Of a stretch of DNA of 64,000 bases, positions 15,354-26,061 are shown piece by piece. Position numbers and translations under genes: made by a program. The notes beneath the pieces were generated by a model. The model was not told the origin of the DNA and did no database searches. It saw only the letters and a program-made list of their open reading frames with translations. The stretch's first letter is position 1, and the number at the start of each line of letters is the position of its first letter. Origin of the DNA: Methanoculleus sp. 7T (GTDB lineage Archaea > Halobacteriota > Methanomicrobia > Methanomicrobiales > Methanoculleaceae); NCBI RefSeq assembly GCF_023195915.1, contig NZ_JALPRP010000001.1, positions 434,001-498,000 of the forward strand, read 5' to 3'.

Positions 15354-16769
15354 TTAATCATCGTGACACACCGAGGCCGGTTGCTCCCAAGAGCGCTTCC
15401 TGTGCGCATCGCACGCCCGGAGCGGCGCTTTGGCATCCTCACGGACAGCGTCCGATACATCGATCATGAACGACGCTATCTCACCGGAAGGCAGCTTGAA
15501 TATATAGTGCCAGACCCAGGGGGAGTCCTTCCCTTTCCTGTACTGGAGGGGGAGCAGGAACTCAGGTTTTTCGGTCTTCAGGACACGGATCAGAGCGTCG
15601 CGAACGTCAGGGTCGGGGAGGTCGGGAAAGACCTCGAAGAGTTTTCTCCCGATTAGGTCTCCCTTCTTCATCCGGAGGATCTTCTCGGTCGCACGGTTGA
15701 TATCCTTGAAGATGTACTCGCTGCCGCCGTCGATCGGCTCGTAGATCAGAACGCCGTTGCAGGTATTCTCGAAGAACAACCGGTAACGCGTCTCTTTAAA
15801 GGCCAGTTCCTTCCGGGCCAGCCGCTCCGTCGTGACGTCCCGGAAGAGGATGGCGAATTCGTGCGGGACGCCCCCGCCGTCGCGGGTGATCGGGGTGAAG
15901 ACGACTTCAAAGTAGGCGATTCCCGACCGGGTGCTCGGGATCCGCTGCTCCCGCTTCAGGCGGTCGAAGTCGCAGGCGAGTTCCGTCTCGGCGACGATCC
16001 CCTGTCGGATCAGTTCGAGAACCTTTCCCTTATAGCAGGATATATCAAAGATATTCCCGTTCATCAGTTCTTGGAAACTCCTCAGGCCGAGGATCTCCAG
16101 AGACGAACGGTTTGCGTTGAGGATAACGCCTTCGGCCGTGAAGAGGATGATCCCGCTCGGGACGGTCTCAAAGATCGTCCGGATCTTCTTCTCCGAGTTC
16201 TTCAGGGCTACTTCGGCATTCTTCCATGCCGTGATGTCCCGCAGGCTGACCATGATCCCCGGCCTCCCCACGTGAGAGACGGTCGGGGCGAACTCGAGGA
16301 GGTAGATATGGTTCGTGCTGTCCTCGATATGCTGCATCTCGGCAAGGTATGGGCCAGACTGCTGGATCCGCTCTATGTTCCGCCTGATGGCCGGATCCGA
16401 GAAGATACGGAGGTTCAGATCGAAGAGGGAAGCGCCGATGATGTTTCTCTCCCGGTGGATGCCGAGGGCCTTGATGAAACTCGTATTCACCATGAGGATG
16501 TGAAGATCCGCATCCAGAATGACGATCGCATTTGAGAGGCGGTCAAAGAGTTCCGAGAGGGGGACCCGTTGCGCCGGGGTGTATAACTTCGATTTTCCAA
16601 ACCGCTGCATGCTCACATCCCCGCTGGATTGGAGCATCTCGAGGTATTTGGAGACGGAGGCTCGGTTCATCCCGAGTTCCCGAGAGATCGCGGAGATCGA
16701 GAGACCTTGTGGCGCCCGGTCTTCAAGGAGGTCGATGATCCTGCTGAATTTATCCTGGTACTCGCTCAT
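15354..16769 (-). CDS. HTH and triple-PAS domain transcriptional regulator
   Basis: 471 residues. The first about 65 residues form a winged helix-turn-helix (ISAISRELGMNRASVSKYLEML). Three PAS domains follow: one from about 75 to 190 (FDRLSNAIVILDADLHILMVN), one from about 195 to 315 (FETVPSGIILFTAEGVILNAN, ending in a PAC-like LFRDVT) and one from about 330 to 450 (FFENTCNGVLIYEPIDG). There is no histidine kinase or receiver domain, so it is a one-component sensor-regulator, a common design in Methanomicrobiales. It is divergent from the acs operon, with a palindromic element between them, which makes acs a candidate target. Ligands of the PAS domains are unknown. Confidence 0.85.
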   Translation of the reverse strand: MSEYQDKFSRIIDLLEDRAPQGLSISAISRELGMNRASVSKYLEMLQSSGDVSMQRFGKSKLYTPAQRVPLSELFDRLSNAIVILDADLHILMVNTSFIKALGIHRERNIIGASLFDLNLRIFSDPAIRRNIERIQQSGPYLAEMQHIEDSTNHIYLLEFAPTVSHVGRPGIMVSLRDITAWKNAEVALKNSEKKIRTIFETVPSGIILFTAEGVILNANRSSLEILGLRSFQELMNGNIFDISCYKGKVLELIRQGIVAETELACDFDRLKREQRIPSTRSGIAYFEVVFTPITRDGGGVPHEFAILFRDVTTERLARKELAFKETRYRLFFENTCNGVLIYEPIDGGSEYIFKDINRATEKILRMKKGDLIGRKLFEVFPDLPDPDVRDALIRVLKTEKPEFLLPLQYRKGKDSPWVWHYIFKLPSGEIASFMIDVSDAVREDAKAPLRACDAHRKRSWEQPASVCHDD

Positions 16770-17068: not shown

Positions 17069-19090
17069 ATGGATACTGTTGACGCGGCGATAGAGCGCGG
17101 ACGCACCGCCCTTGACGCGAGGATGCGAGCGCTTGCCGGGCGGCTCGCCTACGCGGATACGGCATACGCCCTTCCCGTGACCTACGCCGTCACCGGGGTT
17201 GCCGTGCGGGATGCGGACGGGGCGCGGGAGGCATACGGGCAGTCCGGCAACAACCTCCTCGTCGCCTCGGAGTGCCTGATGGCCGGAGAGAGCGGTGTCG
17301 CAAGCCCATACACCGGCTTCATTCCCGACGCGGTCCTCCGGAGGCTCGGCTACACTCTGGTCGACGGGAGCGTCACCGGTCTCGGTCTCCTCGTCGGGAC
17401 GCCGGAGAACCCCGGCGCCGCGGCGGCCGTCTGCCGAGAGATGCAGGAGAATTACCTGCTCACGTTCCTCGCCGGCGGGGTCGTGGAGGCGCTCTCCGGC
17501 GCCGGCATCCGCTTGGGGCTGGACTACCGCTTGGTGCCGCTCGGGCCGCGCGCCGCCCACGGCATCCACTTTGCCGACATCATCGCCCGGGTCGCCATGA
17601 TGTTTGGGGGAGTTCAGCCGGGAGACGTCCAGTCCCTGCTTGGGTACGCCGCGGAGCGGGCAAAGGCATTTGTGGTCGCGTTCCCGGGTCTTACGGACGA
17701 AGAAGTTGCGTTCGTCGACGGCCTGCGGGTGCTCGGGATACCGGTCCTCGCGGTCGGCGGCACCTACGAGGGGGGAACGTGGGTCCCGGTCCCACCCGCC
17801 GACGCGGTCCGGACGGGGATGGCCCTGCGGGGCATCCGGGTCACGGTCACGGCGATCCCGATACCCATGGCCTGTTCGCCCGCGTTTGAGGGGAAGAGTA
17901 TCCGCAAGGAGGAGATGTACGTGGAGTTCGGCGGCGGCCGGACCCCCGCCTTCGAACTTCTCAGGATGCGGCCCCCCGAGGAGGTCGAGGACGGTTCGGT
18001 CACCGTTGTCGGGCCGGAGGTGACCGATGTCCCCGCGAGTGCCGCACTCCCGCTCGCGATCCTGGTGGACGTCGCCGGCGCGAGGATGAAGAGAGATTAC
18101 GAGCCGGTGCTTGAGCGGCGGATCCACACCTTCATCAACTACGGCGAGGGGTCCTGGCACGTCGCCCAAAGGGACCTCATCTGGGTCAGGCTCTCGAAGG
18201 ATGCCGTCGCAAAAGGCGTCAAGATCCGGGATATCGGGACGCTGCTCGCCCACAAGTTCAAGCTGGAGTTCCCGGAGCACGTCGATGCGGTCCAGGTGAC
18301 GCTGGTCACCGACGGGCGGAGAGTCCAGGAGATGCTCCCCGAGGCACGGGAGGTCTATGCCGAGCGGGACGCGCGGATCGCCGGGATGAAGGACGAGGAC
18401 GTGGAGACCTTCTACTCCTGCACCCTCTGCCAGACGTTCGCCCCAAGCCACGTCTGCGTCATCACGCCGGAACGGCCGGCGCTCTGCGGGGCGATCACGT
18501 GGCTCGACGCCCGGATCGCCCACGAGATCGCTCCTGCCGGTGCGAACCAGCCGGTCGAGAAGGGGGAAGCGGTCGACGCGGTCCTCGGGGAGTTCGCGGG
18601 GGTGAACCGGTTCGTGAAGAAGGCGTCCCACGGCGAGACCGACCGGATATCCCTCTACAGCATGCTCGAGAACCCGATGACCGCCTGCGGGTGTTTCGAG
18701 TGCATCGCTGCCGTCGTCCCGGAGGTGAACGGCATCCTGATCGTCAGCCGGGACTTTTCAGGGGAGACGCCGCTTGGGATGACCTTCTCGACGCTCGCAG
18801 GGACGATCGGAGGTGGTGCGCAGACGCCGGGATTTGTCGGGATATCGAAGAACTACATCTTGAGCGACCGGTTCTTGACGGTCGAGAACGGCATCGCCCG
18901 GGTGGTCTGGATGCCGTCCTCCTTAAAAGAAGAGCTTGGGGACCGGCTGCGGGCAAAACTCGTCGAGCGGGGAATGCCCGACCTCTTCGAGAAGATAGCG
19001 GACGAGGTCTCGGCACCGACGATCGAGGACCTGATCGAGTATCTTGAGCGCGTCGGCCACCCTGCGCTTGGTATGAGGCCGCTGATCTAG
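17069..19090 (+). CDS. acsB: Acetyl-CoA synthase, bacterial-type long form (AcsB/CdhC)
   Basis: 673-residue nickel enzyme that joins a methyl group, CO and CoA into acetyl-CoA at the A-cluster. Cluster ligands are Cys451, Cys454, Cys463 and Cys473 for the [4Fe-4S] unit and Cys540-Gly-Cys542 for the nickel site (ENPMTACGCFE); the spacing 3-9-10-67-2 is identical to that of the Moorella enzyme. Residues 1-260 match the bacterial N-terminal domain (YADTAYALPVTY, PYTGFIPDAVLRRLG, MMFGGVQPGD), which contacts CO dehydrogenase and is absent from the roughly 470-residue CdhC of most archaea. It is first in a six- to seven-gene operon. No CO dehydrogenase gene lies in the window. A bacterial origin by transfer is likely. 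Confidence 0.95.
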   Translation: MDTVDAAIERGRTALDARMRALAGRLAYADTAYALPVTYAVTGVAVRDADGAREAYGQSGNNLLVASECLMAGESGVASPYTGFIPDAVLRRLGYTLVDGSVTGLGLLVGTPENPGAAAAVCREMQENYLLTFLAGGVVEALSGAGIRLGLDYRLVPLGPRAAHGIHFADIIARVAMMFGGVQPGDVQSLLGYAAERAKAFVVAFPGLTDEEVAFVDGLRVLGIPVLAVGGTYEGGTWVPVPPADAVRTGMALRGIRVTVTAIPIPMACSPAFEGKSIRKEEMYVEFGGGRTPAFELLRMRPPEEVEDGSVTVVGPEVTDVPASAALPLAILVDVAGARMKRDYEPVLERRIHTFINYGEGSWHVAQRDLIWVRLSKDAVAKGVKIRDIGTLLAHKFKLEFPEHVDAVQVTLVTDGRRVQEMLPEAREVYAERDARIAGMKDEDVETFYSCTLCQTFAPSHVCVITPERPALCGAITWLDARIAHEIAPAGANQPVEKGEAVDAVLGEFAGVNRFVKKASHGETDRISLYSMLENPMTACGCFECIAAVVPEVNGILIVSRDFSGETPLGMTFSTLAGTIGGGAQTPGFVGISKNYILSDRFLTVENGIARVVWMPSSLKEELGDRLRAKLVERGMPDLFEKIADEVSAPTIEDLIEYLERVGHPALGMRPLI

Positions 19091-19101
19091 AGGGAGGGAA
19101 C

Positions 19102-20013
19102 ATGACCGACAGCAACGAACCGGGATCGGCGGTTCCGGAAGTCAGGCTCGGCGCCACCCGGGCCGAAGGAGGAACCCGAGAGGTCTCCTACGTGATCGGG
19201 GGCGAGCGGGATCTCCCGTTCTCCGGGAACAGGCCGGGCCGGCTCCTTGTGGCGCTTGAGGTCTGCGACGACCCCCGGTTCTCGCCGCCCGTGGTCCGCG
19301 ACTACGTGGGCGACCTTGCGAACAACCCGGATGAGTGGGCACGGGCTGCGGAGCGCACCTACGGCGCGGACCTCGTGCGGCTGAACTTCACGAGCACGAA
19401 ACAGCGGGGATTTGATGCGTTCGGGGAGATTGCCGCGACGACGGAGCGGGTGCTTGCGGCGACGACCCGGCCCCTGATCGTCGAGGGGAGCAGCGAGCCG
19501 GAACTCGACAGCGAGGTCTTCCGGAGTTGCGGGGAAGCGGGAGAGGGCGAGCGGCTCCTCCTCGGGACCGCAGAGGCCGACCGCTACCGGAGCGTCGCCG
19601 CTGCGGCGCTGGCCTACGATCATGCGGTGATCGCCCAGTCGCCCATCGATATCAACCTCGCCAAGCAGTTGAACATCCTCCTCCGGGAGACCGGCATACC
19701 AAGGGACCGGATCGTGATCGACCCCTACACGGGAGCGCTCGGCTACGGGTTCGAGTACTCCTACTCGGTGATGGAGCGGATACGCTTGGCCGCTCTTGCG
19801 GGGGATGCGGACCTCGCGATGCCGATGATCAGCGCCCCCGCCGACACCCTCTCGGTCCGGGAGGTGCGGGAGGCCGCACCGGCGGAGCGGGATGCGATGG
19901 CGGTCGCCTGGGAGTTCTACACCGCCTACTCCGCCATCGTCGCCGGCGCAGCGATCATCTGCGTCCGTCATCCTCTGACCGTGAAGAAACTCCAGGAGGC
20001 TCTGGAGGTCTGA
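19102..20013 (+). CDS. acsD: Corrinoid iron-sulfur protein, small subunit
   Basis: 303-residue TIM-barrel subunit of the corrinoid iron-sulfur protein, which shuttles the methyl group to acetyl-CoA synthase. Recognisable parts are PRLLVALEVCDDPRF-like beginnings, LVRLNFTSTKQRGFD, IVEGSSEPELDSEV, SPIDINLAKQLNILL and the loop DPYTGALGYGFEYSYSVMERIR. The length is near the roughly 320 residues of bacterial AcsD and well below the roughly 430 of archaeal CdhD, again pointing to the bacterial type. A GGGAGGGA ribosome site precedes the ATG, 11 bases after the acsB stop. It should pair with AcsC, encoded next. Confidence 0.93.
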   Translation: MTDSNEPGSAVPEVRLGATRAEGGTREVSYVIGGERDLPFSGNRPGRLLVALEVCDDPRFSPPVVRDYVGDLANNPDEWARAAERTYGADLVRLNFTSTKQRGFDAFGEIAATTERVLAATTRPLIVEGSSEPELDSEVFRSCGEAGEGERLLLGTAEADRYRSVAAAALAYDHAVIAQSPIDINLAKQLNILLRETGIPRDRIVIDPYTGALGYGFEYSYSVMERIRLAALAGDADLAMPMISAPADTLSVREVREAAPAERDAMAVAWEFYTAYSAIVAGAAIICVRHPLTVKKLQEALEV

Positions 20014-20016
20014 ACC

Positions 20017-21351
20017 ATGGCGATGAAGGCGCTCGATGTCTACAAGCTCCTCCCAAAGACGAACTGCAAGAAGTGCGGGCACCCTACATGTCTTGCCTTC
20101 GCGATGAAACTCGCCGCTGGGAAGGCGGAGGTCGAAGCCTGTCCTGACCTCGATTCCGGGACGAAGGCTCTGCTCGGCGGGGCGACCAGGCCGCCGGTCC
20201 GGCTTGTCGAGGTCGGCGTGGGCGAGCGGTCGGTCGCTGTCGGGGATGAGTTCGTCCTCTTCCGGCACGAGAAGACCTTCTACCACCCGCCCGGGATCAT
20301 GGTTCAGGTCTCCGACACCTGGCCCGAGGAGCGGGTGCGCTCCGTCGTGGAGACGGTCCGGGAGACGGTCGTCCACCGGGTGGGGATGGACCTCGTCCTC
20401 ACCGGAGTAGCGGTCAGAAACGAGAGCGGATCTCCCGACCGGTTCGCCGAGACCGTGACGCTCGCCGGGGGCGGGAGCGACCTCCCCTTGGTACTGATCG
20501 CCGGCGACCCCGCAGCCCACGAGGCGGCCCTTGCGGTCGCCGGACACTATCGGCCGCTGGTCCATGCCGCGACCGAAGAGAACCGACAGGACCTCGCCCG
20601 CCTCGCGAAACGCTACGGCTGCCCGCTCGCGGTGCGGGCCGACGGACCCAAACCGCTCGCCGCCCTCGCCGGGGAGTGCGCGGACGCCGGGGTCCCGGAT
20701 CTCATGCTCGACCCCGCCCCGCGGTCGCTCCGAGACTATATCGCCACGGCGACCGGGATCCGGAAGGCCGCCATCGGGCGGACCGAACCCGCGCTCGGCT
20801 ACCCCATCTTCCTCGACACAACACCCTTCAGGGAGACCGACGCGGCCCTCGCGGCCGGGATCCTGAAGTACGCAGGGATTATCATTGTCCCCCCGCTCCC
20901 GCCGGCAACCGTCGCGGCGGCGCTCACCCTGCGGCAGAACATCTACACCGACCCACAGAAACCCATCCAGGTGACACCCGGCATCTACCCGGTCAACGAG
21001 CCCGGGCCGAGCGCACCGGTCCTCCTCACGGTGAACTTCTCGCTCACCTACTTCACGCTGCTCGGCTACCTCGAGGCGTCCCGGATACCCTGTTATCTCC
21101 TCATCGTTGATACGGAAGGACTCTCGGTCCTGACGGCCGTCGCCGGCGGAAAACTGACGGAGACCCTCGTCGCCGACTCACTCCGGAAGTTCGGCGTCGG
21201 GGAGTTAGTGGACCACAGCCTGCTCATCATCCCCGGCTACGCCGCCCCCCTCTCCGGGAAGATCGAGGACGCAACCGGCTGGAAGGTGATGGTCGGCCCC
21301 CGGGATGCGGCCGAACTCCCCGGGTATCTGGAGAAGGAGTGGGTGGCCTGA
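20017..21351 (+). CDS. acsC: Corrinoid iron-sulfur protein, large subunit
   Basis: 444 residues. The N-terminal [4Fe-4S] domain has Cys17, Cys20, Cys25 and Cys42 (NCKKCGHPTC plus EACPD); this low-potential cluster reduces the cobalt when it is accidentally oxidised. A TIM barrel follows, with the C-terminal corrinoid-binding domain from about residue 320 (LTVNFSLTYFTLLGYLEASRI ... LLIIPGYAAPLSGKIEDATGW). The protein carries methyl-cob(III)amide to AcsB. It starts 3 bases after acsD with a GGAGG site, and its stop overlaps the acsV start (TGATG). The large subunit alone does not separate bacterial AcsC from archaeal CdhE as clearly as its partner does. Confidence 0.93.
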   Translation: MAMKALDVYKLLPKTNCKKCGHPTCLAFAMKLAAGKAEVEACPDLDSGTKALLGGATRPPVRLVEVGVGERSVAVGDEFVLFRHEKTFYHPPGIMVQVSDTWPEERVRSVVETVRETVVHRVGMDLVLTGVAVRNESGSPDRFAETVTLAGGGSDLPLVLIAGDPAAHEAALAVAGHYRPLVHAATEENRQDLARLAKRYGCPLAVRADGPKPLAALAGECADAGVPDLMLDPAPRSLRDYIATATGIRKAAIGRTEPALGYPIFLDTTPFRETDAALAAGILKYAGIIIVPPLPPATVAAALTLRQNIYTDPQKPIQVTPGIYPVNEPGPSAPVLLTVNFSLTYFTLLGYLEASRIPCYLLIVDTEGLSVLTAVAGGKLTETLVADSLRKFGVGELVDHSLLIIPGYAAPLSGKIEDATGWKVMVGPRDAAELPGYLEKEWVA

Positions 21352-23255
21352 TGCCGACCGTGACGTTCCTCCCGGGCTACCGGAAAGCAGTCGTGCCCCA
21401 GGGGACGACCATCCTTGACGCGGCGCGTGCGGCCGGTCTCCCCATGAACGTGGTCTGCGGCGGGCAGGGGAAGTGCGGGAAATGCCTCGTCTTCATCAAA
21501 GACGGCACGACATCGTTCGATCCTGAGGATTACCGCAGGTTCCTCGCCGAAGAGGAGGTCGGCCGCGGGGCGTGCCTTGCCTGCCGGGCGGCCGTCGTCG
21601 GCGACGTCCGGGTGGAAGTCCCGGCCGGGTCGCTCATCCAGGAACAGAGGATCCTCGTAGAGATCCCGGGCATGGAGGAGGTCCCGCTCAAACCCGCCGC
21701 CTGGAAGTACGAGGTCCATCTCACGCCGCCGTCTCTCGACGATACGACCCCAGACCTCGCACGCCTGCTCGAGGGGATCGAAGGCCGGGGCGGCCCGCCC
21801 CCCAACCGAATCTACGCACCGCTCGAAGTCCTCCGCTACCTCCCGCAGGTGCTCCGCCGGAGCGGGTGGCACGCGACCGGCACGGTCGCCCTGGTGCCCG
21901 GCGGCTACCGCCTGCTCAACGTGGACGAAGGCGACACCACGGCAAGGCTCTACGGGGCGGCCGTGGATCTCGGGACCACCACGATCGTGGTCTACATCCG
22001 GAGCCTGACCGACGGCCGGATCCTTGCTACGGCGTCAAACTACAACCGCCAGATCTCCTGCGGCGAGGATATCCTCTCCCGGGTGAACTTCTCCAGGCGG
22101 AGCGGTCTTTCCCGCCTGCAGCAACTTGCGGCGGAGAGCATCAACGAGGCCCTGACATCAGCCTCCGATGCCGCGGGGATTGATCGAGAGGAGATCTTCG
22201 AGGTGGTGATCGCCGGGAACACGGTGATGACTCACCTCCTCCTCGGGATCGACCCCTCCTACATGATCGCCGAACCCTACGTCCCGGTCGTGCGGCGGAT
22301 GCTCTCGACAGCCGCAGGGCGGATCGGGATCGCGGCCCACCGGAACGCCGGGGTCTACACCTTCCCGGCGGTCTCGAACTTCATCGGCGGCGACATCATC
22401 GCCGATATTCTGGCGGCAGGGATGGCGGAACGCGAGGAGGTCTCGCTCATGGTGGACATCGGCACAAACTTCGAGGCTGTGCTCGGCAACTGCGACTGGA
22501 TGCTCTCTTGCGCGGGGGCGGCCGGGCCGGCCCTCGAAGGCGGGGAGGTGCTCTTCGGGATGCGGGCAAACCCAGGCGCGATCGAACGGGTCAGGATCGA
22601 TGCCGCAACGCTCACGCCGTCCTACTCTACGATCAACGGCACCAAGCCGCGGGGTATCTGCGGCTCGGGCCTCATCGACCTGCTCGCGGAACTGATCCGT
22701 GCCTGCATCATCGACCGGACGGGACAGATCAACCTGGAGATCGACCATCCACGGGTCAGGAAGGGGCCGTACTACCCGGAGTTCGTGGTGGCTTGGAAGG
22801 AGGAAACATCAATAGGGAAGGACGTCGTCATCACCGAGAACGATATCAGAAACCTGATCATGAGCAAGGCGGCGATCCACGGGGCCTGTATGACCCTCCT
22901 CGATGCGGCGGGTCTTACGCGGGGGGAGATCGGCAGGGTCTACTTCTCGGGTGCGTTCGGGAACTATCTCAATAAAGAGAACGCCATCACCATCGGGCTG
23001 ATACCGGAGGTTCCCCTGGACCGGATAGAAAACATCGGGAACGGGGCGATCACCGGCGCGAACATCGCCCTCGTCAACCGGGAGCGGCGGAAGGCTCTCG
23101 ACGGGATCGCCCGGAGGATCACCTATATCGAACTGAACGCGGAGCCGTCCTTCATGGACCGCTACACATCGAGTTGCTTCCTGCCGCACACCGATCTCGC
23201 ACTCTTCCCGCACGTGCAACAGATGCTTGAGGCCTGTCGGGCGAGGCAGGGGTGA
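21351..23255 (+). CDS. acsV: Reductive activator of the corrinoid iron-sulfur protein (AcsV/RACo type)
   Basis: 634 residues. The N-terminal [2Fe-2S] ferredoxin domain has Cys36, Cys42, Cys45 and a fourth ligand from Cys75 or Cys78 (CGGQGKCGKC, CLACR). A linker leads to an ASKHA-type ATPase from about residue 205: AVDLGTTTIVVYI is phosphate loop 1, SLMVDIGTNFEAVL phosphate loop 2, and GAFGNYLNKENAITIGLIP lies near the end. In acetogens this protein uses ATP to drive an electron onto inactive Co(II) of the corrinoid protein. It overlaps acsC by one base and the next gene by four. Many archaea use unrelated or shorter (RamA) activators, so this form is another bacterial-type part. Confidence 0.93.
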   Translation: MPTVTFLPGYRKAVVPQGTTILDAARAAGLPMNVVCGGQGKCGKCLVFIKDGTTSFDPEDYRRFLAEEEVGRGACLACRAAVVGDVRVEVPAGSLIQEQRILVEIPGMEEVPLKPAAWKYEVHLTPPSLDDTTPDLARLLEGIEGRGGPPPNRIYAPLEVLRYLPQVLRRSGWHATGTVALVPGGYRLLNVDEGDTTARLYGAAVDLGTTTIVVYIRSLTDGRILATASNYNRQISCGEDILSRVNFSRRSGLSRLQQLAAESINEALTSASDAAGIDREEIFEVVIAGNTVMTHLLLGIDPSYMIAEPYVPVVRRMLSTAAGRIGIAAHRNAGVYTFPAVSNFIGGDIIADILAAGMAEREEVSLMVDIGTNFEAVLGNCDWMLSCAGAAGPALEGGEVLFGMRANPGAIERVRIDAATLTPSYSTINGTKPRGICGSGLIDLLAELIRACIIDRTGQINLEIDHPRVRKGPYYPEFVVAWKEETSIGKDVVITENDIRNLIMSKAAIHGACMTLLDAAGLTRGEIGRVYFSGAFGNYLNKENAITIGLIPEVPLDRIENIGNGAITGANIALVNRERRKALDGIARRITYIELNAEPSFMDRYTSSCFLPHTDLALFPHVQQMLEACRARQG

Positions 23256-24295
23256 GGGGCGTGGCAGGCATGATCCCGTCCCCGGAACTCCGCGCAACCG
23301 GGGTGGGGGCGCTCCCCCACCGCGACCCCGACGAGGCGTGCCGGGCGGTGCTCGCAGCCTTTCCGGAGATCCCCTTCATCCCCACCCTCCCGAACCGGGG
23401 CCTCCTTGAGACGATCGTCTTTGCCGATTCCGAGCACCTCCCGGGCGGGGTTATCCGGGAGGGCAGGCTCATGGTCGACCGGAGCGCCGATCCCTCGGAG
23501 GCGATGGAGCGGGTTCTCCTCGACTACCTTGAGGGAAACGCTGAGCCCTACCGGGTCGACGAGGCCTACGGGTCGGGGTTCCACGCCATGATGGGCCGCG
23601 ACCTCTCGGACGCCCTTCTCGTCAAGTGTCAGGTGACCGGCCCGGTGACCTTCGGGATGCAGGTGGTTGACGAGACGCGCCGGCCTATCCTCTACGACCC
23701 GGAGTACGCCGACCTCCTCGGGAAACTTCTCGCGCTACGGGCCCGGTGGTGCGAGGAGGCGATGCGGGAGCGGATGGGCGCACGCGCGACGTTGGTCGTG
23801 TTGAGCGACCCCTACCTCGCGTCGCTCGGGTCAGCAGTCGTTCCGGTGGATCCCGGGGTCGCGGCGTCCGCCTTTGGGGATATCGCCAACTTCCTCGACG
23901 GAGGGCTCGGCATTCACTGCTGCGCCAACACCGACTGGGGGTTCGTCCTCGGACTTGCGCCCGCCGTGGTCTCGATCGACGCCTGGACCTACGCCCGGGA
24001 GTTCCTGCTCTACGCCGACGACGTCACTCGCTACATGGAGGGCGGGGGCGTCGTGGCGTGGGGGGTCGTTCCCGCCGACTACGCAGTCTTTGCGGCCGAG
24101 ACTCCGGATTCGCTCTTCAACCGGTTCCGGGAGATCCGTGCCCGGGCGACAGAGACCATCGACCCCGACCTCTTCGACCGCCGGTCCCTGATCACGCCGA
24201 CCTGCGGGATCCGGAACGCCGGCGAGCAGGAGGCCGTCGAGATCATGGAAGCGACCGCGTCGCTCTCCCGTCGCCTTCGGGGTGAGGAGCCGTGA
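23252..24295 (+). CDS. MetE-core/UROD-like zinc methyltransferase (candidate corrinoid-dependent methionine synthase)
   Basis: 347 residues from the GTG that overlaps the acsV stop; an ATG at 23270 is the alternative. It has the TIM barrel of the UROD/MetE superfamily, beginning ATGVGALPHRDPDEAC. A zinc site like that of cobalamin-independent methionine synthase is visible: His222-x-Cys224 in GIHCCANTDW, Asp243 in VVSIDAW in the place of the usual Glu, and Cys318 in TPTCGIRN. The N-terminal half of full MetE, which helps bind folate, is missing. Such core-MetE enzymes are reported to take methyl groups from methylated corrinoid proteins. Its place between acsV and acsF suggests the donor is AcsCD. 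A non-methionine acceptor remains possible. Confidence 0.75.
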   Translation: MRGVAGMIPSPELRATGVGALPHRDPDEACRAVLAAFPEIPFIPTLPNRGLLETIVFADSEHLPGGVIREGRLMVDRSADPSEAMERVLLDYLEGNAEPYRVDEAYGSGFHAMMGRDLSDALLVKCQVTGPVTFGMQVVDETRRPILYDPEYADLLGKLLALRARWCEEAMRERMGARATLVVLSDPYLASLGSAVVPVDPGVAASAFGDIANFLDGGLGIHCCANTDWGFVLGLAPAVVSIDAWTYAREFLLYADDVTRYMEGGGVVAWGVVPADYAVFAAETPDSLFNRFREIRARATETIDPDLFDRRSLITPTCGIRNAGEQEAVEIMEATASLSRRLRGEEP

Positions 24296-25044
24296 CCCGG
24301 CCCTGCACCGTCGTTATATCGGGTAAGGGCGGGACCGGGAAGACGACGATAGCGGCGCTCTTAATCGACGCGCTGGTCGCGGCCGGCGAGCGGCCGGTCC
24401 TCGCCGTGGACGCCGATCCAAACGCAAACCTCCATGAGGCCCTGGGGGTCTCGATCACGGAGACGCTCGGGAGCATGCGGGAGGAAGCCTTCACCCGGTC
24501 CATCCCCCCCGGAATGGACCGGACCGGCTATATCAGGTACCGGTTCCAGCGGGCGCTCGCGGAGGCGGAGGGCTACGACCTTCTCGCCATGGGGCGCCCC
24601 GAGGGGTCGGGGTGCTACTGCTTCCCAAACGCCCTCCTCACCGAGTGCATCGGGACGCTTGAGCGCGGCTACCGGTTCGTCATCGTGGACTCGGAGGCCG
24701 GGATGGAGCATATCGCCCGGGGGACCATCAGGAGTCCTGATATCCTCCTGATCACGAGCGACCCGGGCGCACGGGGGATGCGGACCGCCGGCCGCATCAG
24801 GGACCTCGCGGAGGCGCTCGGGCTCTCGAGGGACCGGATCTACCTTATCGTCAACAGGGACCGGAACGATGCCGCCGCCGGCGATACCCCCCTCATCGCC
24901 CGGATTCCGGAAGACCCGGCGATCGGTGCCGCCGACCTCGCGGGGACGCCGGTCGTCGGGATCCCGGAGGATAGCCCGTCACGGGTGGCGGCGCAAGCGC
25001 TCGCCGGACGCCTCGTCGGGGAATGTGCGCGGCGGAGGGAGTGA
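24292..25044 (+). CDS. acsF: Nickel-insertion ATPase for ACS/CODH (AcsF/CooC)
   Basis: 250-residue MinD/NifH-like P-loop ATPase. The deviant Walker A is GKGGTGKTT (11-19) after a short strand, and DADPNANLHEALG follows. The metal-handling pair is in GSGCYCFPNALL, and a VDSEAGMEHIARGT segment is typical of CooC and AcsF. It delivers nickel to the A-cluster or C-cluster in an ATP-driven cycle. It starts at a GTG that overlaps the previous stop (GTGA), so translation is coupled. As no CO dehydrogenase is encoded here, AcsF with AcsB as client is the better reading than CooC. Confidence 0.9.
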   Translation: MTRPCTVVISGKGGTGKTTIAALLIDALVAAGERPVLAVDADPNANLHEALGVSITETLGSMREEAFTRSIPPGMDRTGYIRYRFQRALAEAEGYDLLAMGRPEGSGCYCFPNALLTECIGTLERGYRFVIVDSEAGMEHIARGTIRSPDILLITSDPGARGMRTAGRIRDLAEALGLSRDRIYLIVNRDRNDAAAGDTPLIARIPEDPAIGAADLAGTPVVGIPEDSPSRVAAQALAGRLVGECARRRE

Positions 25045-25062
25045 TTGCGCCCGGGGGATGGA

Positions 25063-26061
25063 ATGCGGCCAGAAAAATCCTGTGAGAAACTCTCAATCCG
25101 GGTGATCGACTACACCAAAGACCGCCTTGAGGAGAGTGAATGCATCGATCTCACCGAGGCCTGGTCGTGGATCAGCCGGCAGACGGTCACCTGGATCGAC
25201 GTCGTCGGGGTGCCGGAGCACGACGAACTCGTGGTGCTGGCCGGGCAGGCAGGGATCCACCCGCTCACGATGGAGGATATCGTGGCCCCTGACCAGCGGC
25301 CGAAGGTGGAGGAGTTCGGGAGTTATCTTGCCGTCATCGTGAGGATGCTCTCGGTCGAGGGCGGCGGCATCGCAAGCGAGCAGGTCGGCATAGTCTTCGG
25401 GGAGAACTACGTTATAACGTTCCGAGAGAAGCCCTTCCATGTCTTCGAAACGGTCAGGGGGAGACTCAAAAACGAGCAGAGCGCTCTTCGGAACGCGGGG
25501 CCGGACATCCTCGTCTACATGCTCCTCGATGCCATCGTGAGCGTGTACCTCGCCATTCTCGACCAGGTCGACGACAAGGTGGAAGACCTCCAGAGCGAGG
25601 TCTTGGCGTTCGCTCACCCGCAGGCCGTAAAACCGATCTACGCGCTCAAGGAAGACCTAGTGACCGCCCGGAGAGCGGTCGTGCCGGCACGCGAGGTTCT
25701 CGGCTCGCTTGCGAGCCGGGAGTCGGCTCTCATCAGGAAGGAGACGATTCCCTACTTCCGCGATACGTACGACCGGTGCATCCAGGCCGCCGAGATCGCC
25801 GAGTTCTCTCGTGATACGCTGGCCGGCGTGATGGACCTCTATGCCTCGAACCAGAGCAACAGACTCGCCGAGATCACGACGTTCCTCACCATCGTCGCGA
25901 CCACCTTTATCCCTCTGAGTTTTATCGCCGGGTTCTACGGGATGAACTTCACGGATATGCCGGTCATGAACTCGCCCCGGGGCTACCTGCTGGTCCTCCT
26001 CCTCATGGTGAGCGTCGCGTCCGCGATGCTCCTCTACTTCCGGAAGAAGAGGTGGATATGA
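25063..26061 (+). CDS. corA: CorA-family divalent metal transporter at the end of the acs operon
   Basis: 332 residues from the ATG at 25063, which has a GGGGGA element just upstream; a TTG at 25045 directly after the acsF stop is the alternative. It has the same plan as the gene at 12128: IHPLTMEDIVAPDQRPKVEEF, a long helix, two C-terminal membrane segments with YGMNF between them, and the end RKKRW. CorA proteins can admit Mg2+, Co2+ or Ni2+. The 18-base gap after acsF suggests it belongs to the acs transcript, where nickel or cobalt supply would serve AcsB and the corrinoid protein. Which ion it carries is not shown by the sequence. Confidence 0.88.
   Translation: MRPEKSCEKLSIRVIDYTKDRLEESECIDLTEAWSWISRQTVTWIDVVGVPEHDELVVLAGQAGIHPLTMEDIVAPDQRPKVEEFGSYLAVIVRMLSVEGGGIASEQVGIVFGENYVITFREKPFHVFETVRGRLKNEQSALRNAGPDILVYMLLDAIVSVYLAILDQVDDKVEDLQSEVLAFAHPQAVKPIYALKEDLVTARRAVVPAREVLGSLASRESALIRKETIPYFRDTYDRCIQAAEIAEFSRDTLAGVMDLYASNQSNRLAEITTFLTIVATTFIPLSFIAGFYGMNFTDMPVMNSPRGYLLVLLLMVSVASAMLLYFRKKRWI

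Follow-up and report, generated by a model that had tools for sequence, protein, structure and literature searches.

How does an acetyl-CoA synthase (ACS) work in a methanogen whose operon supplies no carbon monoxide dehydrogenase (CODH) to go with it? The question is raised by positions 17069-25044 of a 64,000-nucleotide stretch of the Methanoculleus sp. 7T genome (contig NZ_JALPRP010000001.1, positions 434,001 to 498,000; the whole stretch is referred to as the window), where six genes, acsB-acsD-acsC-acsV-mesB-acsF, form a compact operon on the forward strand. The operon holds no cooS, cdhA or acsE. Gaps of 11 and 3 bases follow acsB and acsD, and the junctions acsC/acsV, acsV/mesB and mesB/acsF overlap by 13, 4 and 4 bases, in agreement with the order and spacing described in an initial annotation of the window, in which the fifth gene was called MetE-like. 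We find here a real, conserved ACS module in a host genome without a detected CO-active CODH. The best reading, to which we give an even chance, is that this untethered ACS would cleave acetyl-CoA and that the corrinoid iron-sulfur protein (CoFeSP, AcsCD) would pass the methyl group to MesB for the synthesis of methionine.

AcsB matches the NCBIfam model NF040764 (CODH_ACS_al_bet, the bifunctional bacterial type) over its full length with 892 bits (cut-off 800). The cysteines of its A-cluster, at 451, 454, 463, 473, 540 and 542, have the 3-9-10-67-2 spacing of the Moorella enzyme, and both the spacing and the bacterial type had been recognized in the initial annotation. The phylogeny agrees: AcsB, AcsC and AcsD of the order (Methanomicrobiales) group with bacterial Acs proteins and are split from CdhC, CdhE and CdhD at support 100, in trees that sample the bacteria narrowly (mostly Thermodesulfobacteriota, with one Acetothermia and, for AcsB, Carboxydothermus hydrogenoformans). 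Each of the three proteins forms a long-branched clade of its own, and the donor is therefore not shown by the trees. Among the accessory proteins, AcsV contains the 2Fe-2S and RACo (reductive activator of corrinoid protein) domains and scores 559 bits with the AcsV model of NCBIfam, below the cut-off of 800. AcsF gives only general CbiA/ParA P-loop matches in Pfam and NCBIfam; it has a CxC motif at 108/110 and always lies directly after mesB.

The host genome (46 contigs totalling 2.6 Mb, completeness 99.88%) encodes a single AcsB. CdhA was not found in this genome, the best matches reaching 22 bits. The Prismane family is represented by an Hcp-like protein and by a 636-aa CooS homologue, the sole CooS of the genome, which is encoded by an isolated gene on another contig (G000:C2:317333-319243 in our numbering of genomes and contigs; locus L002:1339-3249). 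The best PDB match of this protein is 7b7q (660 bits, the next being 390 bits), which we take to be CooS-V of C. hydrogenoformans. In the homologue, Glu takes the place of the Cys295 ligand while the remaining ligands are conserved, a pattern that places it in the CooS-V type. CooS-V of C. hydrogenoformans, in which Cys295 is replaced by Glu, carries out neither CO oxidation nor CO2 reduction (PMC9311411), and because of the shared Glu295 the host protein is predicted, from its sequence, to be inactive toward CO. A search of the genome for CdhA and CooS thus detected no CO-active CODH; Mo-type CODH was not searched for. No AcsE was found either, there being no pterin-binding (PF00809) protein of AcsE size, and the one MtrH lies within the mtr genes (Mtr is present). 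With neither AcsE nor an MtrH outside mtr, we found no route in the host genome from methyl-tetrahydromethanopterin (CH3-H4MPT) to CoFeSP. As first annotated, the operon lacks acsA/cooS and acsE. The accompanying suggestion that its partners are encoded elsewhere does not hold for this genome, within the limits of the tests, since its only CooS is of the CO-inactive type. Two strong full matches to AMP-forming acetyl-CoA synthetase are also present. One of them (G000:C2:87462-89279, locus L175) contains one in-frame TAA.

We surveyed 232 genomes of the order, with the AcsB, Cdh and MesB sets compiled by hand from the search tables. Bacterial-type AcsB occurs in 112 of them (106 of them long and 6 truncated at contig ends), MesB likewise in 112, and CdhA or a strong part of it in 70. 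AcsB and MesB are found together in 109 genomes, AcsB alone in 3, MesB alone in 3, and neither in 117. Seventeen genomes have Cdh without AcsB; 16 of these lack MesB, and the single exception has AcsB fragments. The gene order is identical in every intact locus examined. What was initially presented as an oddity of one strain is thus a standard arrangement, and about half of its carriers own an archaeal Cdh (53 with, 59 without). The initial annotation had itself raised the case that the arrangement might be standard in the order with CODH encoded alongside. The first part of this stands. CODH lies alongside in three genomes (G156, G211 and G219), in which acsF is followed at a distance of ~2 kb by a cooS of the Cys295 type; in G156 a single gene separates the two, and the cooS is followed by a CooC-like gene of its own. 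The order holds both the Glu295 and the Cys295 types of CooS. The 59 genomes with AcsB and without Cdh comprise 24 with a Cys295 CooS, 10 with the Glu295 type only, 24 with none and 1 that is unclassified. A CO-active CODH was accordingly undetected in 34 of the 59, among them 13 with a completeness of 95% or more and four single-contig genomes (G046, G048, G056 and G087). All 14 operon-bearing Methanoculleus genomes in the sample, the host included, belong to this class.

The sequence of AcsB itself differs from that of its bacterial counterparts at one alcove and one tunnel position. The CO alcove of Moorella ACS is lined by G145, I146, V149, F229 and F512 (PMC11321310). Four of these five conserved residues are kept in the order, with F229, F512 and the A-cluster intact, and it is I146 that is changed. 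The host protein has Tyr95 at this site and, in the tunnel, Ile172 at the position of Moorella A222 (A225 of C. hydrogenoformans). By locus counts that include some repeats of one genome, all 102 AcsBs of the order whose sequence extends over the site have Tyr at position 146, and at position 222 they have Ile (55), Leu (35) or Val (12), whereas the 30 comparison loci (25 from bacteria and 5 from archaea with AcsA-AcsB fusions) all have Ile or Val at 146 and Ala at 222. Ala is also the residue of wild-type C. hydrogenoformans, which is represented in the alignment by an engineered variant, and of Clostridium autoethanogenum, in which the gas channel is said to be rerouted (a title cited in PMC12289521); both agree with the 30 loci. 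The engineered C. hydrogenoformans complexes in the PDB, A225L and A225L/F231A, carry Leu at the position equivalent to 222. Another tunnel position, A265, was rejected as a diagnostic site, since Asn or Thr occurs there in other bacteria and Ile in the archaeal fusions. The fold of the N-terminal domain is preserved, although the domain is ~23 residues shorter than in bacterial CODH/ACS enzymes; the predicted model was used for this fold only, its C-terminal half being weak (mean predicted local distance difference test, pLDDT, 63). These substitutions suggest that the CODH-to-ACS tunnel may be narrowed or closed in AcsB of the order. Operation without CODH is thus favored both by the 34 of 59 Cdh-free genomes without a detected CO-active CODH and by the alteration of residues 146 and 222 in 102 of 102 AcsBs of the order, against none of 30 elsewhere.

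Where the methyl group would go is indicated by the fifth gene. The MetE-like protein had no match in sequence searches of Pfam, NCBIfam or the PDB, and its identification therefore rests on the fold and the zinc residues. Its AlphaFold model (mean pLDDT 84) matches the catalytic domain of MetE with a Z score of 22 over 280-289 aligned residues, with the MesD structure 3rpd among the matches; the best Foldseek E value was 5e-8. All 18 homologues compared share the predicted zinc ligands His222, Cys224, Asp243 and Cys318, whose spacing is nearly that of the ligands at 214, 216, 235 and 311 of Dehalococcoides mccartyi MesB (PMC7857596). The model thus identifies the protein as a predicted MesB-type core methionine synthase. 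The authors of that paper (Price et al. 2021) predict that MesB takes its methyl group from CoFeSP and observe that mesB is linked in operons with acsC/acsD in some methanogens. The initial annotation overlooked that this gene is a constant member of the operon and likely the exit for the methyl group.

A precedent is found in D. mccartyi, where AcsB, CoFeSP and the core-MetE are present, CODH, AcsE and MetF are absent, and the methyl group of acetate ends in methionine (PMC7005905, PMC7857596). Its proposed route leads from acetyl-CoA to methyl-CoFeSP, CO and CoA, and then to methionine (PMC7005905). In the host, the AMP-forming synthetases would convert acetate to acetyl-CoA, which AcsB would cleave, with transfer of the methyl group to AcsCD and release of CO and CoA. 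MesB would move the methyl group from AcsCD to homocysteine to give methionine, while AcsV would re-reduce the corrinoid and AcsF would load nickel into AcsB. In the absence of a tethered CODH the CO would have to pass through solution; it would be lost to the medium or, in related organisms, would reach a CooS or Cdh that is separate from the ACS. The initial annotation had not considered that CO might be set free when acetyl-CoA is cleaved. Cleavage toward methionine is favored because every component of the D. mccartyi route is present in the host, in which no path from CH3-H4MPT to CoFeSP was found, and because MesB co-occurs with AcsB in 109 genomes and has the fold and zinc site described above. 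We infer the direction of flux, methionine as the product and the release of CO.

Several points weigh against cleavage of acetyl-CoA for methionine. The host has MesA; MesB is therefore not required for methionine as such and seems redundant. Archaeal CoFeSP can accept a methyl group from CH3-H4MPT without AcsE, and as CH3-H4MPT is plentiful in a methanogen, the methyl group of CoFeSP may come from there. A true CooS in 24 relatives without Cdh, and Cdh in 53 others, mean that CO supply may matter in those organisms. The altered residues at 146 and 222 are present in all of these relatives as well and so do not follow the loss of CODH; an attempted correlation with the presence of CODH within the order failed, the residues being constant. 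The broader proposition, that a whole order of methanogens has an ACS with a closed CO tunnel, uses it free of CODH to turn acetate into methionine and emits CO as a by-product, is tentative and rather more doubtful than not.

The second option of the initial annotation was that the operon runs from free CO: AcsB could alternatively scavenge CO, making acetyl-CoA from free CO in the medium and from methyl-CoFeSP charged by CH3-H4MPT, with MesB on a side branch. ACS retains a high affinity for free CO when its tunnel is blocked (PMC12289521), the A-cluster, F229 and F512 are intact, and CooS is present in some relatives. Yet the residue lining the CO site of the alcove is changed, neither an AcsE nor an additional MtrH that could charge CoFeSP was found, and the constancy of MesB is left unexplained. 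Free CO is also scarce, and we consider this alternative unlikely. CoFeSP and MesB might, on the other hand, act together as an additional methionine synthase that draws on CH3-H4MPT, AcsB being retained for an exchange reaction that is occasional or regulatory. In its favor, archaeal CdhDE takes the methyl group directly from tetrahydrosarcinapterin (H4SPT). MesB is moreover linked to CoFeSP, both by co-occurrence here and in PMC7857596. AcsB and its predicted maturase AcsF are nonetheless always in the operon, with the A-cluster intact, and MesA already serves the CH3-H4MPT route, which makes this explanation unlikely.

An ordinary CODH/ACS, with its CODH encoded elsewhere as the CooS homologue or missed in assembly gaps, would be in keeping with the CooS homologue of the host, with the true CooS of 24 relatives (in three of them just downstream of acsF) and with Cdh in 53. 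The host CooS, however, has Glu295, of the type without CO activity (PMC9311411), the tunnel residue is altered, and no CO-active CODH was detected in the four single-contig relatives. We regard this explanation as very unlikely.

Genes of the operon and its divergent neighbor, in coordinates of the window
Feature	Position	Strand	Evidence
acsB, bacterial-type acetyl-CoA synthase, 673 aa	17069..19090	+	NCBIfam, A-cluster Cys, alcove/tunnel columns, tree, fold
acsD, small CoFeSP subunit, 303 aa	19102..20013	+	NF003376 344 bits (cut-off 280); tree
acsC, large CoFeSP subunit, N-terminal Fe-S motif, 444 aa	20017..21351	+	NF003195 532 bits (cut-off 306); PF04060 FeS; tree
acsV, putative reductive activator of corrinoid protein, 638 aa	21339..23255	+	PF14574, PF17651, PF17650, PF00111
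mesB, predicted MesB-type core methionine synthase, 347 aa	23252..24295	+	Predicted fold, Zn residues, co-occurrence with AcsB
acsF, putative P-loop nickel-insertion ATPase of AcsF/CooC type, 250 aa	24292..25044	+	P-loop domains, CxC, position
Divergent helix-turn-helix (HTH)-PAS protein, possible regulator	15354..16769	-	IclR-type HTH and PAS domains; position upstream of acsB

Genes for CorA-family transporters are immediate neighbors of the operon in many loci of Methanoculleus. In the window they lie downstream (25045-26061), and in loci L011-L019, L125 and L133 they lie upstream of acsB. Our guess is that they supply cobalt or nickel.

Annotated acs/cdh genes are taken as a sign that a methanogen is autotrophic; in this case they would point the other way, to the use of acetate. 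If the residues are read correctly, this is a natural ACS that gave up the CODH tunnel, and it offers a test of the dependence of ACS on that tunnel. Our literature search, which left most subscription papers outside, found no report of a CODH-free ACS in this order. That mesB can share an operon with acsC/acsD in some methanogens is known from PMC7857596; neither the lack of CODH nor an altered alcove and tunnel was found in the passages of that paper that were consulted. New here are Tyr146 and Ile, Leu or Val222 in 102 of 102 AcsBs of the order.

With the archaeal CdhABCDE complex (acetyl-CoA decarbonylase/synthase, ACDS) the module shares the reaction family and the host domain, but CdhC has no N-terminal domain, CdhC, CdhD and CdhE fall in separate clades, and CdhA was not found in the host genome. 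Another archaeal genus of the same phylum has a fusion of CooS/AcsA (Cys295) to a full-length AcsB in one 1375-1407-aa frame (L231:6591-10778 in G250; also in G232, G267 and G241); in G250, acsD, acsC, acsF, acsV and acsE lie nearby. The three-domain AcsB, the A-cluster cysteines, CoFeSP and the putative AcsV and AcsF have counterparts in the CODH/ACS systems of Moorella, Carboxydothermus and C. autoethanogenum, from which the module differs in having no CODH and no AcsE, Tyr at 146, Ile, Leu or Val at 222, and the shorter N-terminal domain. It resembles the incomplete Wood-Ljungdahl pathway of D. mccartyi in combining ACS, CoFeSP and a MesB-type synthase, without CODH or AcsE, with an acetate-activating synthetase. 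It is unlike that pathway in its fixed six-gene operon with acsV and acsF, and in its archaeal H4MPT-using host, which has the complete methyl branch of methanogenesis and, in MesA, a further synthase. If our reading is true, the acetate-to-methionine route of Dehalococcoides would extend to a common group of methanogens, which would be predicted to release CO.

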